IMG/VR virus record: IMGVR_UViG_3300050821_002122
Location: 62,001-126,000 of that record
DNA length: 64,000 nt
Source of the DNA: a virus
Reading direction: 5' to 3' (one strand)
Shown here: piece by piece, positions 4,121 through 64,000 of the stretch
How the letters are laid out: the number at the start of each line of letters is the position of its first letter
Position numbering within the stretch: position 1 is the first letter of the stretch
The notes under the pieces: generated by a model
What the model was told of the DNA's origin: nothing
The model's database searches: none
The model's input: the letters and a program-made list of their open reading frames with translations, nothing else
Made by a program: the position numbers and the translations under genes

Positions 4121-7100
4121 ATGACTACTCCATCGCAATTCTACTATCCAGTAACAATGCACCGTGACGCGGCAGCAAGTGATACGCTGGCTCCTGTCGT
4201 CATGACTCTCCCACTCGTGCAGTCTGTGGAGGATTTGGTTATCATCTTGCTGAACAGCGTTGGTGAGCAGCCCCAAGGTCTCTACGTCTTCGATGGCATT
4301 CAGTGGCGGTTCGCTATGCCGATGCCAGCAGTAAGTGCTTCGATCATTTTCGCAAGTTCGCTGGACGTCTACATCAATGCAACGTTGGATGTTACGCTCG
4401 ATCCATCGACCATTGTGTACAAAAATGGTCAGCAACAACCTGGTGATGTAATCACTCATGGCAATGCTGTGTACGCTGTTCGCACTCCACCAGCAGGTGG
4501 TGGCGGTGGCGGTGCAGTTACTTCTGTCAATGGTCAGACCGGTACGGTAACTATCAATGCTGCGAATCTGCCAGGTTTGGCTGTCGTTGGTAAGACTGGC
4601 CAATACGCTGATCTGATCGGTGCCCCAGGCCCGTACACGTTGCCTGCGGCAACTACTTCCACGCTCGGTGGTGTGATCGTATCGCCATCAGGTAATCTGT
4701 CGGTCAACGGCAGTGGCACTGTGGACATCAGTTCGGCTCTCTTGGCTTCTATTGCTAGCAAGCTGAATAGCGCTGTTCCAATCGGTACCGGTACTACGCT
4801 CATCGACAGTGTAACCAGCGGTATCTTGACGCTGCGCACTATCACTGCAGGTAGTGGCATCTCGCTGGTGAACAGCAGTGGCACGATCACCGTGGCCTAC
4901 GTGCCTACCATTGCCACTGCAACTGCGCTAGGTAGCGTGATAGTACCTTCGTCGTCGAACTTGAGCGTTGACTCGATGGGTAACATCGACATCACTGGCG
5001 CTTTGATGACGACTATCGCGGGTAAACTGAACAATGTGGTCAACAGCGGTGGTGGAGTATCGGTCGTGCGTTCCTCGACTGGCGGCACTGGCACGTTCAA
5101 ATCGTTGGCCCAAGGCAGCAATATCACCATCGTCGATGACGGTGCTGGCACATTGACCATCGCATCCACGGCTGCTGGAGGCTCGGTAACGCTGACTGGC
5201 GATGTGACGGGTTCAGGTACATCCACCGTTGCAACCACATTGGCTGCATCTGGTGTAACTGCTGGTACCTATACCAAGGTCACGGTTGACGCTAAAGGTC
5301 GTGTTACTGTCGGCGCAGCACTGTCTGGTACTGATGTGAATACGGCACTAGGCTACACGCCATACAACGGTACAACCAACCCTAACGGATACATTGCCGC
5401 CAATCAAGCCATCACTGTCACTGGTGATGCAACAGGTTCTGGTACCACGGCAATCACTCTGACCCTGGCCGCCTCCGGCGTAACTGCTGGTACTTACACC
5501 AAAGTTACCGTGAATGCTAAAGGCTTGGTGACCGCAAGCTCTGCGCTGTCGGCTGGTGACATCAACACTGCGTTGGGCTACACTGCGTACAACGGTGGCA
5601 CCAATCCAAATGGCTTCATCGCAGCCAACCAGACTATCACTTTGAGCGGTGATGCTACCGGTAGCGGTTCGACTGCTATTACTGTAGCGCTTGCCAACAG
5701 CGGTGTATCGGCCGGCACTTACAAGTCGGTGACCGTCAACGCCAAAGGTCTCGTGACTGGTGGCACCAATCCTACGACCCTTGCTGGTTATGGTATCACC
5801 GATGCTTTGAGCAGCCTGACAGGCGGCAGTGTCGCTGGTAACATTACGATGACGAGTGGCGCAACTGTAACAGGTCTGCCTACACCTGTGAACCCATCGG
5901 ATGCTGCTAACAGGAGCTATGTAGATAACGCTATTGCTAGCGTGGCCTCTGGCACTTCATGGCGTAACAATGCGCAGGTCGCTTCGACTGGCAATCTGAC
6001 GCTGAGCGGTCTTCAGACCATCGACGGCTATACCACTTTGGCCAATGACCGCGTGCTAGTCAAAGACCAAACGAATCAAACAGAGAACGGTGTTTATGTC
6101 GCAGCATCCGGCGCGTGGACTCGTGCTACGGACACTGACACTGGTGCAGAAATCATTGGTATGGCCATCTTGGTCATCAATGGTACTGCGAATGCGCTGA
6201 GTCAATGGATCAACACGAACACTGGCAGTATTGTTGTCGGCACTACGAACATTACCTACACCAAATTGCAGGGTAACGGCACCATCTATACTGCTGGTAC
6301 TGGCCTGACACTGACTGGTCAAGTGTTCTCGATTACCAATACAGGCGTTACGGCTGGTACCTACACCAAGGTTACTGTCAACGCACAAGGTCAGGTAACG
6401 ACAGGCGCTGCTTTGGCCTCGTCGGATATTACTACTGCACTGGGCTTCACGCCTTACAATTCGACCAATCCGAGTGGCTATATCTCCGCTAACCAGACAA
6501 TTACGTACACTGGTGACGCCACAGGTTCGGGAACCACTGCTGTAACGTTGACTCTGGCCGCCTCAGGTGTTACGGCTAGCACGTATAACAACGTTACCGT
6601 CGATGCTAAAGGTCGTGTGACCAATGGTTCCAACGTTGCGTACCTGACGGCTAACCAAACCATCACGGTGTCTGGTGACGCGACGGCAAGTGGTTCGACC
6701 ACTCTAGCTCTGACTTTGGCTGCTTCCGGCGTAACTGCTGGTACGTACAAATCGGTCACCGTCAACGCTAAAGGTCTCGTAACGGCTGGCACCAACCCAA
6801 CTACGTTGGCCGGCTTCGGTATCACGGACGCGCTGTCGACCTCGGGTGGTTCGCTGACAGGCACCATCACTGTATCTGGTGGCGGTGCGATCACTGGTCT
6901 GCCTACCCCATCCGCAGCATCTGATGCATCGACCAAAGGTTATACGGACGGAGTCGGTACTGCGACCTACAACAGCGTTTCGTGGAAATTGATGGCAGCG
7001 GCTGCGACTACTGCAAACATCACGTTGAGCGGCTTGCAGGCAATCGACGGTTACACCACGTTAGCAGGTGATCGTGTACTGGTCAAGAATCAGACCACGC

Positions 7101-36343: not shown

Positions 36344-37780
36344 TTACTCTCCGTCAGGTTCTTCGTTGCATGCTACGTAAAGTTCCTCACCCTTGCCGCT
36401 AGCGATCTGCTTGAAGCAGTATGCTCGCAACGACATCGATTTGAAGCCAGCTTTCTTACTGATCTTAATCATTTGGTCACGATCACCCAACACCCAGGCC
36501 TTGTAGTCGTACCAGCTTAGGGGCTTGGCAGTACCGAGCCCGTCAAGCTTGAGCGTCAGTTTCTCTCGGCCTTTGCCAGCCAGTTGACCAGTCAAGCGTA
36601 GGTAGTGTATGGTATCGAAGAACGGATCGAAACCACGGGCTACACCGCTACCGTCTTGCTCCCATATACGTACCCAGACTTTACGACCTGGTGTCCACAG
36701 CTTGTTCTTGATGGCCTTGACCTGAATGTAGCGATAGATATCCTTACCTTCGAATTCGACGGACTTCTCAACCTCGCTGCGGTTATCATTGAAGTTCTTT
36801 GGCCACAAAGGCATACCGGAAGCACGCGCAGTATTACGAGTGCGAACGTCAGAATTGAAACGCAGAGCCTTCCCGCCTGGTTCTTGTTCTTTCGGACCGT
36901 ACATAGCCATCGGGATATCGCGCAACTGATTTACACCCAGCAATGCTACCATCTTTTCAGCCAAACGACCCTTGACTCGTGGCAAATGCTTGGCAAACAT
37001 CCGAGCGGCTAAGCCAAGGCTGTTGTTTGCATCCTCTTCATCATTGGCGGCTGGATTCATGGCTGGGTACGAGTCAACAAAGAAGATACCCTGCAGATTG
37101 CCGTCCGGTGCCGGAAGCCAGTAGCCTTTGCCGTATTTCTTGGTCATCGACGAGTCAGCCATATCCCCGTATTTGGCCTTATTCTCCTTTGTCTCATCGA
37201 AGCGCAACCACCATTTCTTGGCAATAAATTTCTTGTCTGGTAACTTACGTAGAACCTCCGACATGTAGTCGAAGAATTTATCGCCAACAGATTCAGAGTG
37301 GTAGCGAACTATTGGGCGTATTACCCACTTACCCGTATCTTCATCTCGTTTGCCGAATAGTTGATTTTTCTCCAACTTAACTCCAGCGCCACGAATGATC
37401 GATTCTACGTAACGCTTGGAGTTTCGGGTACTCCCCTCATAATCCCAAAATTCCAACAAGGGAATCTTCGCCTTAATAGCGTTGGCCATGACGGTCAGCG
37501 TATTAGTTGTCTTCGCTGTCTGCTCCCAACCCGAGGAAGTGTACATGCCAGCGCGAACACCACCACCGAGTTGGATATCAAGGCACAGCATGCCGGTAGA
37601 CATCGGGTCACCAATGTCCAAGCTGGAGACCTCTACGCCTTGACGGCGAGCGATTACATCCAGTTGATCCCCGTAGATGGAGGCATAATCGAACTTCTCG
37701 GTTGATCCTTTTTTCTTCTTGGATTTCGGCTCTTCCGCTTCGACATCAACCTCTACGTCTTTCTGTTTCTTTTTTGCCAT
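36344..37780 (-). CDS. uvsX: UvsX/RecA-type recombinase
   Basis: Product of 478 residues. RecA-fold landmarks in order: a divergent Walker A at residues 84-92 (GWEQTAKTT; Ala replaces the usual Gly before Lys), DYEGST, Walker B-like FFVDSYPAM, and the L2-type region LLGVNQLRDIPM followed by GGKALRFNSDVR. A Lys/Glu-rich N-terminal extension of 30 residues is present. It catalyses strand exchange in recombination-dependent replication with the gp32-like protein encoded next to it. GGAG ribosome site; a terminator separates it from the gp32-like gene. Confidence 0.88.
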   Translation of the reverse strand: MAKKKQKDVEVDVEAEEPKSKKKKGSTEKFDYASIYGDQLDVIARRQGVEVSSLDIGDPMSTGMLCLDIQLGGGVRAGMYTSSGWEQTAKTTNTLTVMANAIKAKIPLLEFWDYEGSTRNSKRYVESIIRGAGVKLEKNQLFGKRDEDTGKWVIRPIVRYHSESVGDKFFDYMSEVLRKLPDKKFIAKKWWLRFDETKENKAKYGDMADSSMTKKYGKGYWLPAPDGNLQGIFFVDSYPAMNPAANDEEDANNSLGLAARMFAKHLPRVKGRLAEKMVALLGVNQLRDIPMAMYGPKEQEPGGKALRFNSDVRTRNTARASGMPLWPKNFNDNRSEVEKSVEFEGKDIYRYIQVKAIKNKLWTPGRKVWVRIWEQDGSGVARGFDPFFDTIHYLRLTGQLAGKGREKLTLKLDGLGTAKPLSWYDYKAWVLGDRDQMIKISKKAGFKSMSLRAYCFKQIASGKGEELYVACNEEPDGE

Positions 37781-37799: not shown

Positions 37800-37841
37800 A
37801 AAGAAAAGCCCCAGCCTGAGCTACCTCTACCGGCTGGGGCG
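37800..37841 (-). terminator. Rho-independent terminator after gp32-like gene
   Basis: Minus strand: GCCCCAGCC (plus 37833-37841) pairs with GGCTGGGGC (plus 37809-37817) and is followed by TTTTCTTTT. Stem of 9 GC-rich pairs. It isolates transcription of the gp32-like gene from uvsX. Confidence 0.92.
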
Positions 37842-37849
37842 ACTCTTAA

Positions 37850-39391
37850 TTACTTCTTCTTGGACTTTTTCTTTTTCTTCGCTGGAGGTTCGTCATCGTA
37901 ATCCTCATCATCCTCATCATCCTCATCGTCATCCAGGTCGTCGTCGAGGTCATCATCGTCCTCGTCATCGTCTTTGGATTTCTTCGACTTGCCTTTTGCC
38001 TTCACCTTGGGCTTGCTTTTGGATTTCTTGCCCTTCTTGGGTTCGTCATCCTCCTCGTCTTCGTCCTCATCGTCGTCTTCATCGTCGAGGTCATCATCAT
38101 CCTCCTCGTCTTCGTCTTCGTCCTCATCATCTTTCTTCGACTTGCCCTTCGACTTCGCTTTTACCTTGGACTTTCCTTTGCCTTTCTTTGGCTCGTCGTC
38201 TTCATCCTCATCATCGTCATCCTCATCATCGTCATCGTCATCATCATCGTCCTCGTCATCATCGTCACGGGATTTCTTCGATTTCGATTTACCTTTCGAT
38301 TTGCCCTTTTTGGGCTTCTCATCCTCATCGTCGTCATCGTCCTCATCGTCGTCATCGTCCTCATCGTCGTCATCGTCGTCGAGGTCATCATCCTCATCTT
38401 TGGACTTCTTGCCCTTCGATTTTGATTTGGACTTCTTGCCCTTCTTGGGTTCGTCATCCTCATCTTCATCGTCGTCATCCAGGTCATCGTCATCGCGCGA
38501 TTTGGATTTCTTGGCTTTGCCCTTGGACTTCTTGCCCTTCTTTGGCTCGTCGTCGTCATCCAGGTCATCGTCTGGCAGGTCGTCTTCGTCCTCGTCGTCA
38601 TCCTTCTTGGATTTTTTACCCTTCAGCTTAATGCCGTTGCGTTTGGCCCAACCTTCGAAGTCGGCTTTTACCTCAGCTGCTTTCATCGGTTCTTCCAGAT
38701 CGCTCAGATCGTATTTCAGGTATTCCATTTCCTCTTCGGTCAACGGAGTGCGCTTACCGATGACTACCTGATACTGGTTGGCCGGCTCTTTGGTCGAGTC
38801 GTACATGATGCGGATATCGCAACCATACTTCTCATGCGTGACCGGGTAAGCTTTGGCGCCACCCTTCTTGCTTTCGACGATGTTCAGGCCGCCTTGCTCT
38901 TTGATCTTGGTCAGCGCTGAGGTAGTCAGGCGAACCGGCACGATTGGCGTCCACGAGTCGGAGTCTTTGTCTTTGAAGCCGGCTTTGCGTTCGCTTTTGG
39001 TATGCTTCGGTTTCTTACGTGGTTCGTCTTTCTGCGCCTTACGCAGGATCGCATTGATGAAGCCTTGCTTGGAGAAGTTACCACATTGGTCCTTCTGCTC
39101 CATATCCGACTGCGAAGCGATCAGATCGCGCCATGGATCGTATATGGCGCCATCACGTTGCTGCGTTGCCGCATCATACGAGGGGCATGGCGTGTAGAAC
39201 GTGGTCTTTTTGCCCTCTTTGTTCTTGGTCTTGATCCAGTAGCCACCGTAGGTGTAGATCGAACCAATCAAACGCAGTTCAACCCACTTCTTTTCAGGGA
39301 ACTTGAACTGCGGGATTTTGTCACTGATCTTGCCACGTTTGTTGCCACCGCCTGCTAGTACATCGTTGAGGTCCGTGCCCTTTTGTGCCAT
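37850..39391 (-). CDS. gp32-like ssDNA-binding protein with giant charged tail
   Basis: Product of 513 residues. Residues 1-255 look like a phage single-strand-binding core: a basic start, FPEKKWVELRLIGSIYTYGG, scattered aromatic residues and Cys at CPSY, CGNF and CDI. From about residue 258 to the end the chain is only Asp/Glu blocks alternating with Lys/Ser/Gly blocks; EPKKGK recurs at the start of several basic blocks. Classical SSB and gp32 proteins end in a short acidic tail that recruits partners; here the tail is half of the protein and ends in a basic KKKKSKKK. The ATG has AGGAG upstream. Confidence 0.75.
   Translation of the reverse strand: MAQKGTDLNDVLAGGGNKRGKISDKIPQFKFPEKKWVELRLIGSIYTYGGYWIKTKNKEGKKTTFYTPCPSYDAATQQRDGAIYDPWRDLIASQSDMEQKDQCGNFSKQGFINAILRKAQKDEPRKKPKHTKSERKAGFKDKDSDSWTPIVPVRLTTSALTKIKEQGGLNIVESKKGGAKAYPVTHEKYGCDIRIMYDSTKEPANQYQVVIGKRTPLTEEEMEYLKYDLSDLEEPMKAAEVKADFEGWAKRNGIKLKGKKSKKDDDEDEDDLPDDDLDDDDEPKKGKKSKGKAKKSKSRDDDDLDDDDEDEDDEPKKGKKSKSKSKGKKSKDEDDDLDDDDDDEDDDDDEDDDDDEDEKPKKGKSKGKSKSKKSRDDDDEDDDDDDDDDEDDDDEDEDDEPKKGKGKSKVKAKSKGKSKKDDEDEDEDEEDDDDLDDEDDDEDEDEEDDEPKKGKKSKSKPKVKAKGKSKKSKDDDEDDDDLDDDLDDDEDDEDDEDYDDEPPAKKKKKSKKK
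37857..38620 (-). repeat. Acidic/basic low-complexity coding repeat
   Basis: About 760 bases of GAC/GAT-rich and AAG-rich codons encode six alternating acidic and basic blocks. Basic blocks share PKKGKKSKSK-like wording; acidic blocks are runs of D with some E and L. The complementary strand reads as long Ser/Pro-rich frames, which are artefacts. Confidence 0.85.
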
Positions 39392-39415
39392 TTGATGCTC
39401 CTGTTACGGTTGAGT

Positions 39416-39814: not shown

Positions 39815-40146
39815 CTTGACTCCGATAGTGTTAGCGCTTGTATGATCTGCACCATACCAGCTTTCGTTTTCTCGTCTGTGGTCTCCCTTGCTAACTGGTT
39901 CAGAGACATCAGCGTAGTCTGAATAAGACCAGCATACTGATCGCACTTTTGGATGCCACGTTCATCCATGTGCTTCATGATATTATTTACTAGCTCACGA
40001 ATACCGTCTTCGCCCAGCTTCTCGGTAAGCAGTTGGGCCGTAGTCCCTTCCGCCTGTTTGGCGCGAAGTTGGTAATCTTGCAGCAGGTTCTTGTATGCCT
40101 GGACCACGACGTTAGGGCCTGTCTGTTGCGTATCAAGACGGCTCAT
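39811..40146 (-). CDS. Helical unknown protein
   Basis: Product of 111 residues from ATG 40146, preceded by GGAGG; it overlaps the 3' end of the sigma-like gene by 14 bases. Mostly amphipathic helix (VVVQAYKNLLQDYQLRAKQ; GIRELVNNIMKHMDERGIQ; LMSLNQLARETTDEKTKAG). Coexpression with the sigma-like protein suggests a possible partner, as with T4 gp33/gp55, but nothing in the chain shows it. Confidence 0.6.
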   Translation of the reverse strand: MSRLDTQQTGPNVVVQAYKNLLQDYQLRAKQAEGTTAQLLTEKLGEDGIRELVNNIMKHMDERGIQKCDQYAGLIQTTLMSLNQLARETTDEKTKAGMVQIIQALTLSESR

Positions 40147-41101
40147 ATACCAGTGCCTCCAATAGTTGTCGATCAGTCGGTGATACGTATTGCGGGATGC
40201 CCAGCGAGGTCCTGACCAAGCCATGTGGATCAGTGCAATACGCGACGTAGGCTACGTGTGCCCACAGCTCGCTTTCAACGTCTGGATTAGTGACACCGAT
40301 GAAGTCGTGTACCGCATCGCCATGTTCTTCTATCAGACCTTCGTAAGAAGAATCCGATGTGCCTTGCGCGAGTTGCGCTACCTCACCCTTTGCTGACTTG
40401 TACCAATTCTGGATGAAGGTCGTCAGTACACCCTGCCGAGGATCGCATCGGTCAACCGAACGTGATACGATTACCATGTATATCTGCACGATGTCGTCCA
40501 GCTTGACCAGGTAGCTGAAGTCTTTATAGGTCCGCTGCGCGTTCATGATCGTCATGCGCGCATACTTCTCGATGATCTTATTTTTCCATCCGATGGCTTT
40601 GGTGTCCCAGAACTTCGTCTCCTGTATTGCTTGATAGAGATTACCTTGAGGTCGAAGTCCTATGTTGGTTTCAATGCGATGCGTGATCGACCGACGAATC
40701 TCTGGCTTCAGCTTAACGAACTGAAGCTCAGTATAGGTTTTTAGGTAGCGCAAGAAAAAGCCCACAAGACCGAACAGCAAGCCACGGTTAATGTACATCT
40801 CCCGTATATTCGTGAAGGCTTTCTCTTGATCTTCTGCGATCAGTGCATTGAACAATTGGATCGGTAATTTCTGCCGATCGTTGGACGTGAATTTAGCGCT
40901 GGAGCGCAAGCTCTGTCGTGCAACCACTTTAGCAAAGTAGGTGTAGAACAAAGAGGGACACTCGGTGGCTATGGGATGCAAGGACTTCCAAATGAAGGAG
41001 TCCAGCGTTTGCAGATATTGTAGGCTGGTGTAGTTTGTGGTAATCGACTCTTTGGAAATTTTAATCTGGTCAAATACCTGACTATGTTCGTAACTGGCCA
41101 A
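40133..41101 (-). CDS. Sigma-70 region-2-like protein, possible late sigma factor
   Basis: Product of 322 residues starting at TTG (AGGAAACACC upstream). Around residues 200-240 the text KLDDIVQIYMVIVSRSVDRC / DPRQGVLTTFIQNWYKSAKG has the sigma region 2 layout: LDDIxQ, a helix ending in V-D-R-x-DPxxG, and a hydrophobic TFIQ-helix. The N-terminal 190 residues are helical without recognised motifs. Phages of this type need a factor like T4 gp55 to read late promoters; this is the best candidate in the window. Confidence 0.65.
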   Translation of the reverse strand: MASYEHSQVFDQIKISKESITTNYTSLQYLQTLDSFIWKSLHPIATECPSLFYTYFAKVVARQSLRSSAKFTSNDRQKLPIQLFNALIAEDQEKAFTNIREMYINRGLLFGLVGFFLRYLKTYTELQFVKLKPEIRRSITHRIETNIGLRPQGNLYQAIQETKFWDTKAIGWKNKIIEKYARMTIMNAQRTYKDFSYLVKLDDIVQIYMVIVSRSVDRCDPRQGVLTTFIQNWYKSAKGEVAQLAQGTSDSSYEGLIEEHGDAVHDFIGVTNPDVESELWAHVAYVAYCTDPHGLVRTSLGIPQYVSPTDRQLLEALVYEPS

Positions 41102-44091: not shown

Positions 44092-44411
44092 TAGACCGCC
44101 ATAGGCGCTTTGATAGCCGCATGATGTTTATAGTTCAGTAGATGGATATCGTTTGGAGCAAGTCCGCTGACTAATTCATCGAGCGACAAGATTGTAGCCC
44201 CAACAGGAACCACTATATCGAGTTCGGGCGGATCGAATGGCTTCCGGCTCAACTGTTCTTCCACCTGATCCAAATGGTTCACGTAGATGTGGGTATCCGA
44301 TAGGAACATCGTCAGCGTTGCTGCGGTGCGGCCAGTCCAGGCAGCGAATAGTCCCAGCAGCAGTGCATAGCCGGCGATGTTGAATGGTGCGCCCAAAAAT
44401 AAATCTACTGA
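44091..44411 (-). CDS. td: Thymidylate synthase, exon 2
   Basis: Second exon, 106 residues plus stop. It encodes SVDLFLGAPFNIAGYALLLG (folate/dUMP-binding region), LSDTHIYVNHLDQVEEQLSR and the terminal NYKHH then IKAPMAV, all hallmark thymidylate synthase segments. It joins exon 1 in frame at MR|SV. The 3' splice site follows the intron-terminal G at 44412. Together the exons give a 314-residue enzyme converting dUMP to dTMP with methylene-tetrahydrofolate. Confidence 0.93.
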   Translation of the reverse strand, partial: SVDLFLGAPFNIAGYALLLGLFAAWTGRTAATLTMFLSDTHIYVNHLDQVEEQLSRKPFDPPELDIVVPVGATILSLDELVSGLAPNDIHLLNYKHHAAIKAPMAV

Positions 44412-45541
44412 CATTATGTTCGATGTGGTTCGCGATACCACACCCGCTAGCTTTGGGCCTCAGCTAACTGCTGCATGTTACCATGCAGAGCAGACTATAT
44501 CACGCTCCTACAAGGAGCCCTTTCTTTTCGAGTGCGCTTGCACCCTACTCTACTTGCTTCCGCACATGCGGGCTTTCGATAGTCGTTAGGCATTTAATCT
44601 ACATACGAGTAATCTGGATAATTCTTGGAACGAATACGATTTAGGATGGTTGCGGTAACTACACCAAGTTTTCTTGCTGCTGCTGTCATGCTTACGTAGG
44701 TTTTTTTACCAATTCGAACCCTCCGCGTGTTGGGAGGAAGTTTACCTTTGTTAAGCTCTGACAAAAGCTGTTTTGTTTTCTTGGTATGTACTTTACCAGC
44801 GAACGAATTCACGTAATCATCGGCAGCCACTCGTGCCAATGCTGATTTTCGATAATTTTCTCTGGCTTCAGGTGTAGTGATGCGCCCGACAGCCTTTTGA
44901 TTACCTAACATGGCATCTGAAAGAATCTTTCTAACTTTTTTAGTATGCGTGTTTCCATACATACCGTTAAGCTCACCAGGTCTGCCCCACGTTTCATCTC
45001 GTTCGTCTTGAGTCATTGCAGCGATGTTCTTATGCATTGTGGTTTTGATCTGCGCTATTATTTCAGTGCGCCTACCATTACGCGTAAGATTATCACCACC
45101 GACAGCGCGCATTCCAATAGTCAATGCTTTTTTATTTTGAAGATTTTTTCGTATTAATTTATCTTCAAGTTTATAAGCATCTCCCCTATCAAGTAGTTTT
45201 ACCACGGTAAAAGTCAGATCAGACGCACCATATTTATCATACAGTTTTTGTAACTTCTGATTTATATGGTCACCACTTGCCAATGCCTTAAGGTGGCCTC
45301 TCTTCCGCGCTCGCATGTTTTTTGAACTACCGTGATAGAATTTTCCAGTTGCTGCACTCGTTATTTTGTAAACACCGCATAGTATTTTCATGACACCTCC
45401 CATTTGGTAGCATCATTAAATTGTGTAGCTAAAAGCGATGTCTAGAATGTAGATATTTAGCACGGGATTGGGTCTGTGACCGTTCCCCGTTTAGAAAGGT
45501 TTGCTAGATAGGTTGCCCTATCAAGGCGCTCAGTGTATCGA
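44412..45541 (-). ncRNA. Group I (IA2-like) self-splicing intron in thymidylate synthase
   Basis: 1130 bases between the exons. The 5' exon ends in U, the intron ends in G (AACATAATG, 44412-44420), and exon GCGU can pair with intron GCGC to give the U.G pair of P1. Core strings: AAACGGGGAACG (45481-45492), ATCCCGTGCTAAAT (within 45455-45470), GCCTAACGACTATC (44578-44591) and GATATAGTC (44493-44501); GACTAT and ATAGTC form P7. GCATGGTAACATGC (44473-44486) forms a hairpin. From memory these strings match the T4 td intron. The intron carries the endonuclease at 44594-45391. Confidence 0.93.
44594..45391 (-). CDS. GIY-YIG homing endonuclease in the intron
   Basis: Product of 265 residues from ATG 45391 (GGGAGGT upstream). 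N-terminal GIY-YIG nuclease: CGVYKITSAATGKFYHGSS, then MRARKRGHLKAL and a Glu in YKLEDKLI. Zinc-independent NUMOD-type DNA-binding repeats follow (ELNGMYGNTHTKKVRKILSD; AGKVHTKKTKQLLSELNKG), and a helix-turn-helix-like NUMOD1 motif SMTAAARKLGVVTATILNRI ends the chain. It is the counterpart of I-TevI of the T4 td intron and would spread the intron to intronless alleles. Confidence 0.93.
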   Translation of the reverse strand: MKILCGVYKITSAATGKFYHGSSKNMRARKRGHLKALASGDHINQKLQKLYDKYGASDLTFTVVKLLDRGDAYKLEDKLIRKNLQNKKALTIGMRAVGGDNLTRNGRRTEIIAQIKTTMHKNIAAMTQDERDETWGRPGELNGMYGNTHTKKVRKILSDAMLGNQKAVGRITTPEARENYRKSALARVAADDYVNSFAGKVHTKKTKQLLSELNKGKLPPNTRRVRIGKKTYVSMTAAARKLGVVTATILNRIRSKNYPDYSYVD

Positions 45542-46165
45542 ACGCATGAGCATTGTCATATGCAAAGTGCCATCTGAGCGCGGCAGGAATTGGAAACTCA
45601 TGTGGCACGCAGGCAAAGCGATCTTATCGATTACCGCCGGATTCCACGCAGTGACGATGATGCGGCGGCTCTGGCTATTGTTCCGAATGTCATTCAAGGC
45701 GTTAGCCAATTGGTCGATACGTTGCTGGGCCACAATGCCGGTTTTGCCTTCCCAGACAAAATCAAATATGGGCATCAGGTGGTCCGGCAAGAAAGGTGCC
45801 TCAGTTAGAATTTGTGGCTGACCTGCCCAGTTACGCCACTGACTGCCGTAGACTGGTCCCAGATCGTCTACGCCTTTACGGTTCGGATTGGCCAACCACG
45901 CAGCGTTCTCGTTGGCGTTCTGATCCCAGACCTTACACCCGTTTGCCCTGAACTCGGCTGCTGATGTGGCGCCATTCAGGAAGCTGATGTATTCACCCTT
46001 GACTGAATCGAAGGCCAGCTTCTTGGTTGTGGTTGCTGGGAAGCCGTCGCGCAGATCGTAGCGCAGCATCTCACCTGGTGTAGTGATCGTGTCGATGCCA
46101 GTACGGTTGGGTTCACGCTGGCCGACGGTCAAAACGTGCTTCATCAAATCTTGGTAGTTTTTCAT
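45542..46165 (-). CDS. td: Thymidylate synthase, exon 1
   Basis: First exon, 208 codons from ATG 46165 (AGGAAGC upstream). It contains NRTGIDTITTPGEMLRYDL (Arg for phosphate binding), GPVYGSQWRNW, SRRIIVTAWNP and the catalytic Cys187 in ALPACHMSFQF. After Arg208 the frame would end within nine bases in the intron, so splicing is required for an active enzyme. dTMP supply pairs with the FolE and deazaguanine genes of the same region only by location. Confidence 0.93.
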
Positions 46166-61993: not shown

Positions 61994-62351
61994 TGGTTGA
62001 CCTGTTATAGTTTAGCCGCATACCACTAAGTTCAGAGCCGTAAGTCAACGCCCAGGCGACTGGATTTGTCAGATCGCAGTCGCCCTCATAAAGCATGGTG
62101 AGCATTTCCCTAACAACGTCTTGAACTTGGATTTCGCTGGCAGCCCAGAATATGAAATTTAGGACTTCATGTTCAAAAATAACGAACCGCGGGCTAGAGG
62201 CACCCGCAGCAAGTGCAACGGTAATACGAGTATTAGCCCACGGGCTAACCAACTCGTCAACGAACAGCATGTAAATCTGTTGGTTCAAATGGTCCGATAT
62301 ATAAATCCTGTCTACCTCTACCTGTTCTATGCTGTAGCGGCTTCCTTGCAT
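61980..62351 (-). CDS. Unknown small protein in the replication operon
   Basis: Product of 123 residues (AAGGAG upstream), overlapping the polymerase 3' end by 25 bases. QQIYMLFVDELVSPWANTRI, PRFVIFEHEVLNFIFW and VREMLTMLYEGDCD suggest an alpha/beta fold. Function unknown. Confidence 0.6.
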   Translation of the reverse strand: MQGSRYSIEQVEVDRIYISDHLNQQIYMLFVDELVSPWANTRITVALAAGASSPRFVIFEHEVLNFIFWAASEIQVQDVVREMLTMLYEGDCDLTNPVAWALTYGSELSGMRLNYNRSTNELH

Positions 62352-64000
62352 TTAGACTCCTTGCCCTTATGAATGTAGATTGGCCGGATAGCTTCTACAA
62401 TCTGCTTGTCCAGGTCGCTCACATTCAGTAGAGGATAATGTTTTTGTAGCCAATGACGGCATTTTTTATTAGCCCAAGGTTTGAAGATTTCTTGTAGCAC
62501 ATCCTGTTCGGTTCTACCATCAGCCAACAGGCCAAGCTCTGCCGCTTCTTTTATAGAAGCCTGTATGCCAGAAACAATACTAGGTAAAGACCAATCCCAC
62601 TTATGAGTAATGTCATCACGCGCCCCAAACTCCAACTCGATCTCAGGCTCTACCGGAAACTTGAAGTTGAATTCACGTTCGTAGGCCTCAGTTACACCGT
62701 AAGTTGCACACCACTGGAGAATATGTGCATATGGAATAACCATAGCATACGGCACCGAATAGTAGTTCGCATCGTGAACGGCTCGATTGTACGGCACACG
62801 TAACGACCATGCGTCATATTCAATACCCAGCAGTTCGCAAATCTGAGGCAAACGTTTGTAATAGTGTTCCATAATGATGCGACCAGCTTTGACGCCAATC
62901 TCGGATGCCCAACCTTGGATTGGGGCATTGGAACCTCTACGCACTTGCTGCGCAATGATCTTCTTATCGCCCGTCATTGCAGCGAATAGGTGACGAATAC
63001 GACCGATTGGCGAGAATACGATGTACAGTTCTTCCGCCATCTTTTTCGTCTTGTTGGTCCAAGCACCAGCCTTCTTGAACTCAGCAAAGATTTTGTCGAT
63101 AAGACCTTGAGCGAACGGTGTGCGATCCTCCGCCAGCAAGTCCTTTAACTTCTTCTCGGCCTCAGCAGCCACCTTAGCAGGTGTCTCTTTGTTGCCAATC
63201 GTTGACATCAGTTCCAGCTTATCACCAGTCTTCGTGTCTTCGCCCAAGGTGGCCGCAGACTTACCGTAAATCAGACCGAAGATAATAGCCTTAATCGCAT
63301 CACGAAGGGGATGGTCTTTATCCACGATCTTGTTTAGCAACCGCTTCACGTTCAGGATATGGATATCACCGCGCAACTTTATATCAGCTAAAGCCTTTAC
63401 ACTTGGATGGCGGTAATCACCATCATCTTCGGCCATTGAATACATACCATCATTTGCGAATTCTGCATGATACTTCTTCGCAGCTTTGACGTAGGCCTTA
63501 TGTGCCAATTCTTGTGAGCCAAAGACACCTAAGTGCTTTACCTTTTTACGTGGACTCGGTTTTATCTGTGCTACCCAACTGCCTGCTTTCGGCCCAGGAT
63601 AAACACCTTTGTAACCAGAGCTAGTTTTTGTGGAATCAGTTCTGCGGTTTCTTGAATTCTCCAACCTAGTTGCTGGTCGTAGATTATTAATGCGATTGTT
63701 AAACGGATTGTTGTCTTTGTGGTCTACTTCAACTGGAAGGTACCCGTAAACCAGCAAAAAGGCTATTCTATGTGCTCTATACAACTCACCATTTAGGGAT
63801 AGGTACCACGAATCTTTACGTTTGGAGCCTGCCACACTTCCTATAGGTGTATTGCGGCTGCGAGCTTGTTTCCAGGTGAATTTTCCACTATCTGGGTCGT
63901 AAATAAACCACTCATCCATGAGTTTTTTTAGGTCTTTATCTTCTTGCGGAATACCAGGGATAGCTATATATGCCTGCCGCAATTTCTGACCAATGCGGAA
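62327..64000 (-). CDS. DNA polymerase I, C-terminal part, with in-frame HNH-AP2 insert; 5' end outside window
   Basis: Frame is open to the window edge. Order: RIGQKLRQAYIAIPG, which in family A polymerases directly precedes motif A; a complete HNH-AP2 endonuclease (63446-63952); then MYSMAEDDG, GDIHILNVKRLL, motif B AIKAIIFGLIYGKSA, RRGSNAPIQGWASEIGV and motif C AVHDANYY, with His-Asp kept but Ala for the usual Glu. Motif A with its catalytic Asp is not present anywhere in the visible part. No stop codon, intein end motif or group I core was seen. Polymerase identity is clear; whether this copy is active as encoded is not. Confidence 0.85.
   Translation of the reverse strand, partial: FRIGQKLRQAYIAIPGIPQEDKDLKKLMDEWFIYDPDSGKFTWKQARSRNTPIGSVAGSKRKDSWYLSLNGELYRAHRIAFLLVYGYLPVEVDHKDNNPFNNRINNLRPATRLENSRNRRTDSTKTSSGYKGVYPGPKAGSWVAQIKPSPRKKVKHLGVFGSQELAHKAYVKAAKKYHAEFANDGMYSMAEDDGDYRHPSVKALADIKLRGDIHILNVKRLLNKIVDKDHPLRDAIKAIIFGLIYGKSAATLGEDTKTGDKLELMSTIGNKETPAKVAAEAEKKLKDLLAEDRTPFAQGLIDKIFAEFKKAGAWTNKTKKMAEELYIVFSPIGRIRHLFAAMTGDKKIIAQQVRRGSNAPIQGWASEIGVKAGRIIMEHYYKRLPQICELLGIEYDAWSLRVPYNRAVHDANYYSVPYAMVIPYAHILQWCATYGVTEAYEREFNFKFPVEPEIELEFGARDDITHKWDWSLPSIVSGIQASIKEAAELGLLADGRTEQDVLQEIFKPWANKKCRHWLQKHYPLLNVSDLDKQIVEAIRPIYIHKGKESKCKEAATA
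63446..63952 (-). mobile_element. HNH-AP2 homing endonuclease unit within polymerase
   Basis: About 169 codons with the layout of a stand-alone HNH homing endonuclease: MDEWFIYDPDSGKFTW, ELYRAHRIAFLLVYGYLPVE then VDHKDNNPFNNRINNLR (HNH) and SGYKGVYPGPKAGSWVAQI with FGSQELAHKAYVKAAKKYH (AP2). It is a relative of the gene at 56907-57437. It is in frame with polymerase sequence on both sides. Boundaries are set by where polymerase similarity stops and resumes and are good to a few codons. Confidence 0.82.

Follow-up and report, generated by a model that had tools for sequence, protein, structure and literature searches.

A gp32-fold single-stranded-DNA-binding protein with a long block-charged tail, predicted to be disordered, in a virus record and its phage relatives

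Single-stranded-DNA-binding proteins (SSBs) occupy a central place in replication, where their disordered tails determine which partners are recruited. In bacteria this tail is rich in Gly, Gln and Pro and ends in the tip DDDIPF. The T4 protein gp32 carries instead a short acidic C-domain, for which binding at the ssDNA site or close to it has been proposed; with this domain present, association becomes salt-dependent and its kinetics change (PMC5892887). In crowder, gp32 condenses in vitro in a liquid-like manner, and the recombinase UvsX condenses via its disordered C-terminus (PMC11951158), while the E. coli SSB needs its linker in order to condense, and co-condensation is set by how compatible the linkers are (PMC12143593). 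Two further precedents come from other proteins: D/E repeats can autoinhibit DNA-binding proteins, tune their target search and can speed it among decoys (PMC10250230), and grammars of lysine blocks and acidic regions mark nucleolar scaffolds (PMC10936679). Our literature searches, which had incomplete coverage, returned no description of tails such as the one reported here.

The analysed DNA, called the window below, is a stretch of 64,000 nucleotides from the 189,689-base virus record IMGVR_UViG_3300050821_002122 (positions 62,001 to 126,000), which as a whole contains a single copy of the SSB gene (Table 1). An earlier note on the window had described half of a gp32-like protein, about 255 residues, as an alternating acidic/basic tail, and both the proportion and the length are right (257 of 513 residues). 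In the relatives whose gene neighbourhoods were examined, sigma factor, SSB and UvsX likewise follow one another in this order, some with extra small genes in between. The hairpin between the SSB and UvsX genes has a folding energy of -25.1 kcal/mol (z -4.0), and a terminator consensus scan gives a weak match there that, taken alone, is not above chance. Antisense ORFs running across the tail (poly-Ser and others) were set aside as mechanical echoes of its repeats.

Table 1. Coordinates of the SSB gene, its parts and its neighbours in the window
Feature	Position	Strand	Basis
Gp32-fold SSB gene, 513 aa, charge-block tail	37850..39391	(-)	ORF and profile search
AGGAG ribosome-binding site, 6 bases ahead of the SSB ATG	39398..39402	(-)	sequence
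Folded core, residues 1-256 (residues 1-18 low confidence)	38624..39391	(-)	PHROG 15004 match; model pLDDT 81.6; RB69/T4 gp32 Z 12.8/12.2
Disordered tail (predicted), residues 257-513, six acidic and seven basic blocks, net charge -68	37853..38623	(-)	composition; block-mean pLDDT 39-53
Acidic block 1, residues 264-282	38546..38602	(-)	translation
Acidic block 2, residues 300-314	38450..38494	(-)	translation
Acidic block 3, residues 332-358; holds the longest exact short tandem array, 38322-38377	38318..38398	(-)	translation, repeat scan
Acidic block 4, residues 376-400	38192..38266	(-)	translation
Acidic block 5, residues 421-450	38042..38131	(-)	translation
Acidic block 6, residues 474-501	37889..37972	(-)	translation
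Basic extreme C-terminus PPAKKKKKSKKK, residues 502-513	37853..37888	(-)	translation
Probable intrinsic terminator between the SSB and UvsX genes, GC-rich hairpin then T-rich run	37800..37841	(-)	folding
UvsX/RecA-like recombinase, conserved downstream neighbour	36344..37780	(-)	PHROG 97 E=7e-47; Pfam RecA
Sigma factor, conserved upstream neighbour	40133..41101	(-)	PHROG 17569 E=1.2e-53

The relation of the core to gp32 is a relation of fold. The whole protein matches the profile PHROG 15004 (single strand DNA binding protein) with E=2.5e-84 over residues 17-352, and the AlphaFold2 model of the core, built from 20 aligned sequences (mean pLDDT 81.6, pTM 0.75), is closest among solved folds to 2a1k and 1gpc, the RB69 and T4 gp32 structures (Z 12.8 and 12.2), followed by 2atq (10.9) and 8gme (10.4), whereas the best unrelated fold reaches a Z of only 4.2; bacterial SSB structures are not among the fold matches. 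No Pfam family reaches the cut-off for the SSB and no gp32 model appears at E up to 1, nor did a search of solved structures by sequence give a match, so that the relation to gp32 came from fold comparison only. The designation gp32-like therefore holds at the level of fold, and we call the protein gp32-fold rather than a member of the gp32 family by sequence. Gp32 binds zinc through Cys/His residues, and a set resembling this zinc site (C...CPxC...H) is retained in Erwinia, Dickeya and other relatives. In the window SSB one Cys remains and DPWR replaces CPxC, and throughout its clade, where this position reads DPWR or DPWY, the gp32-like zinc ligands are lost. Gp32-type SSBs bind ssDNA cooperatively by way of their N-terminal domain, and the first 18 residues of the window protein are modelled with low confidence. 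What the window protein shares with T4 gp32 is the core fold, a UvsX-containing phage system and an acidic C-terminal region after the core; it differs in the missing zinc-ligand set and Pfam match, and in having about 257 residues of alternating blocks with a basic end where gp32 has its short C-domain.

The tail is composed mostly of charged residues (D 103, E 32, K 65, R 2, besides S 20 and G 12) and includes one aromatic residue. Its acidic blocks are 15-30 residues long, with D/E runs of up to 25. The alternation is real: computed over residues 234-513, the charge-segregation measure reaches 0.423, while 200 shuffled versions average 0.108 and peak at 0.146. The full-length model has no secondary structure past residue 256 and block-mean pLDDT values of about 39-53, and the tail is accordingly predicted to be disordered. 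A folded DNA-binding core followed by a disordered tail is also the plan of E. coli-type SSBs, from which the window protein differs in its charged rather than Gly/Gln/Pro-rich tail and in its final residues, KKKKKSKKK, with no DDDIPF-like tip. Consecutive Asp/Glu runs in a disordered region are shared with the D/E-repeat autoinhibited DNA-binding proteins, and lysine blocks alternating with acidic tracts with the disordered regions of nucleolin, UBF and Pol I subunits; the latter are eukaryotic, unrelated proteins, and the likeness is compositional only.

A tblastn search for relatives returned 91 phage records, scans of viral contigs gave more, and the proteins of about 30 jumbo phages and contigs were read through. 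Each of them has a charged tail after the core, nearly always a blocky one, and none lacks a tail altogether. The jumbo-phage SSBs of PHROG 15004 (BcepSauron, Motura, PaBG, Alexandravirus and others) share both family and synteny with the window protein. Charge segregation lies above all shuffles in the relatives tested except for the P. putida phages Lauda and KoPa-5, in which the tail has roughly 90 residues and D/E blocks are almost absent, and it is marginal in Vibrio phage GR11A (0.188 against 0.184). The charge blocks are therefore not indispensable to the family. A search for further relatives with a Vibrio query found none.

Across the family the tail ranges from about 90 to 283 residues. 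The window clade, comprising Sarumanvirus, Motura and several metagenome contigs, has strongly net negative tails of about 250-280 residues, in contrast to the near-neutral tails of 90-200 residues in most other PHROG 15004 genera; the complete SSBs of BcepSauron and Motura have 511 and 504 residues. Net tail charge is -65 to -80 in the window clade and PhiXhv-15 and -23 to +7 in most other relatives, among them the Erwinia and Dickeya phages at about -7 to -12, and it rises to +13 to +16 in GR11A and the P. putida pair. The correlation of core and tail charge is weak (r = -0.49) and was computed over related sequences, for which reason we make no claim of a charge balance between the two parts. 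The terminal tip varies too. The earlier note's basic extreme end is correct for the window protein (PPAKKKKKSKKK), and the Erwinia phages also have basic tips, but it is not a family trait, since other relatives end in acidic tips (DEDDEDDLDD in BcepSauron, WDDDDE in PaBG, DWDDDE in Lu11). The Motura SSB (L011:3992-5506), of the same gp32-like family, ends in DDDIPF, the bacterial tip, which might recruit partners of the host SSB.

Several records of relatives merit separate mention. In Lauda and GR11A, whose SSB tails are short and net positive, the gene after the SSB encodes a very acidic protein (L024:4080-4886, net -75, and L023:4069-4722, net -29, respectively), to which the acidic part may have relocated. 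The SSB of Rhizobium phage N28_1 (L026:2974-4257) is annotated as 'Nop14-like' and a nearby gene (6046-6456) as 'CDC45-like', probably a misnaming via acidic low-complexity sequence. Near the PaBG SSB gene, on the minus strand of NC_022096.1 at 89804-90060, about 86 consecutive GAN codons (D/E) form a run that far exceeds every D/E run within the PaBG SSB. Salmonella phage Sen-NF (L033) and Alcaligenes phage Afa-NA1 (PV550095.1), with different hosts and records of 108 and 78 kb, give identical SSB match statistics (34.8%, same query range and E-value), and these records may be partial or mislabelled.

Such low-complexity tails could in principle have arisen by replication slippage as a neutral expansion without function. 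Nearly identical Xanthomonas/Erwinia phages (PhiXhv-12, -15, -16 and Ep032) do share the core and differ in the lengths of their Asp runs, in PhiXhv-16 an Asp run is frameshifted into Met/Thr, either by biology or by sequencing error, and some exact arrays occur in the window. These arrays are short, however: 3.1 copies of 18 bases at 38322-38377, at 56 bases the longest exact tandem array in the tail, and a 9-base unit present three times at 37901-37927. Since in addition the Asp codons of the window tail are mixed (GAC 53, GAT 50), the tail does not owe its length to assembly collapse or to recent slippage; the isolate phages BcepSauron and Motura, moreover, have tails just as long. The basic blocks are likewise similar as protein and varied in codons, and charge blocks persist in many genera despite synonymous turnover. 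Among close pairs whose tails could be aligned, dN in the tail spans 0.03-0.20 against a core dS of 0.3-1.4 for the same pair, and 2-17% of the aligned tail residues change charge class. Core dS was taken as the yardstick because alignment of Asp runs is uncertain, inflating dS and deflating dN in the tail, and tail dN may still be underestimated. In most close pairs the tail evolves faster than the core, yet well under the neutral expectation. The charge pattern is thus conserved against a background of synonymous change, which marks the tail as maintained rather than as a repeat artefact, and on these sequence comparisons we conclude that the tails of related phages are kept under selection. 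Slippage as sole origin was thus rejected, and a functionless expansion appears very unlikely. In one of the four phages, PhiXhv-12, the SSB (L034) stops early and is followed by small overlapping ORFs; the other copies are at L015 (PhiXhv-15), L035 (PhiXhv-16) and L016/L036 (Ep032).

The reading that we favour, with moderate confidence, sees the window protein as serving a jumbo-type phage in replication and recombination: an SSB of gp32 fold whose acidic C-domain has expanded to a long disordered polyampholyte that acts as an electrostatic gate and as an arm for multivalent docking. As long as ssDNA is absent, the acidic blocks would fold back onto the DNA groove, which is positively charged, and hold the SSB away from non-target sites; ssDNA filling the groove would release the tail, whose acidic blocks could then dock basic partners, while the lysine blocks might contact DNA or acidic blocks on adjacent SSBs. 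The outcome would be a multivalent brush along the coated ssDNA, which would gather UvsX and other factors there. Fold, predicted disorder, charge pattern, conservation and synteny are what the sequences and models show, whereas gating, docking and any co-condensation are inferred. The opposite net charges of core (+11) and tail (-68) fit such a gate, as in the precedents of the gp32 C-domain and the D/E repeats. For autoinhibition alone the lysine blocks would be superfluous and a much smaller number of acidic residues enough; gating leaves the lysine blocks unexplained, and they suggest multivalent contacts with DNA, neighbouring tails or partners. Against the proposed gate and arm speak the nearly block-free tails of Lauda and KoPa-5, together with the missing gp32 zinc ligands and the lack of a Pfam gp32 match. 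Another possibility is a purely autoinhibitory or solubility tail, a long polyanion that mimics DNA, holds the SSB in solution and prevents it from binding duplex, with lysine blocks that merely moderate the charge. The positive core and strongly negative tail of the window clade agree with it, and it has the same precedents (PMC10250230, PMC5892887). Many relatives, however, have tails that are near neutral or positive yet blocky, so the conserved trait is segregation and not net negative charge, and we consider a purely inhibitory role somewhat unlikely.

The alternating blocks might also, in line with the earlier note's suggestion of condensates on ssDNA, act as a condensate scaffold, driving phase separation of the SSB on ssDNA into a membraneless replication compartment, a possibility that we entertain only tentatively. 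It draws on the strong charge segregation (0.423 against at most 0.146 after shuffling), on the resemblance of the tail to disordered nucleolar scaffold regions with lysine blocks, acidic regions and D/E tracts (PMC10936679), on the in vitro condensation of gp32 and E. coli SSB (PMC11951158, PMC12143593), and on the strongly negative charge-decoration values of relatives with near-neutral tails. For most of these relatives the value is about -3 to -12, whereas that of the window tail is +64. At this value and a net charge of -68, simple charge-patterning theory does not favour self-condensation, and repulsion between tails should dominate unless a polycation joins. Moreover, condensation of E. 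coli SSB relies on Gly-rich regions and on aromatic or positive residues (PMC12143593), set against the one aromatic of the window tail. Self-condensation thus appears less likely for the window SSB than for relatives with near-neutral tails, and those of the Erwinia and Dickeya phages fit self-association better. Mixed condensation of the window tail with DNA, polycations or lysine-rich phage proteins is possible.

Scanning the other ORFs of the record revealed a 272-aa protein with the same tail grammar (G000:C1:167455-168273 = L070:2455-3273), in which a lysine-rich head (+20 for residues 1-70) precedes a small conserved domain and a D/E tail that includes the block KKGKKGKK. Its middle domain aligns weakly with Motura gp335 and BcepSauron gp172 (E about 4e-3 to 5e-3, 36-42% identity), which are likely homologues; Motura gp335 has a weak histone H1-like HC2 match below the cut-off. 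In BcepSauron the tails of the SSB and gp172 have in common a 24-aa string and 77 identical bases, compared with a maximum of 47 and a mean of 27 in 60 trials of synonymous shuffling of gp172, an excess that suggests exchange of segments between these genes. Such exchange is not general, as the longest DNA common to the SSB and 272-aa protein tails of the window phage is 16 bases. The charge-block tail could nevertheless be a shared address tag, carried by the SSB and the H1-like-headed protein, which could exchange tail segments through recombination and so co-assemble into a phage replication compartment where the SSB supplies the polyanion and lysine-rich proteins the polycation; this proposal, which covers at least two unrelated proteins in the window clade, we rate as unlikely. 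The record also encodes a 163-aa lysine/alanine-rich H1-like protein (G000:C1:176054-176545 = L070:11054-11545) with a net charge of +31 and the end KSKKDDDFLL, for which tblastn found no phage relatives.

The earlier note had further proposed that the tail could compensate for unusual charge on DNA with aminated (positively charged) bases, an idea for which we found no positive support. A thymidylate synthase family gene is present and compatible with thymine modification, but not diagnostic of it. A TGT homologue was not found while the control matched in all 14 genomes, two thymine-hypermodification models gave no match with their controls likewise silent, and the tails occur in phages of very different gene content. 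We regard this explanation as extremely improbable. The thymidylate synthase itself lies in two pieces (44094-44417 and 45536-46162 of the window) separated by a GIY-YIG-type homing endonuclease ORF (44594-45403); the split is probably an intron, and an Rfam search there gave no family above threshold. At 62327-63982, HNH endonuclease and DNA polymerase matches in one ORF suggest a homing element in the polymerase gene.

In the window protein the C-terminal region of a gp32-fold SSB has turned into a long, block-charged tail that is under selection and predicted to be disordered. The natural variation of the family in tail length, net charge and tip offers a ready-made series for relating charge segregation to ssDNA binding, recruitment and condensation. 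If the idea of a shared tail is true, it would represent a phage parallel to the charge grammar of the eukaryotic nucleolus.
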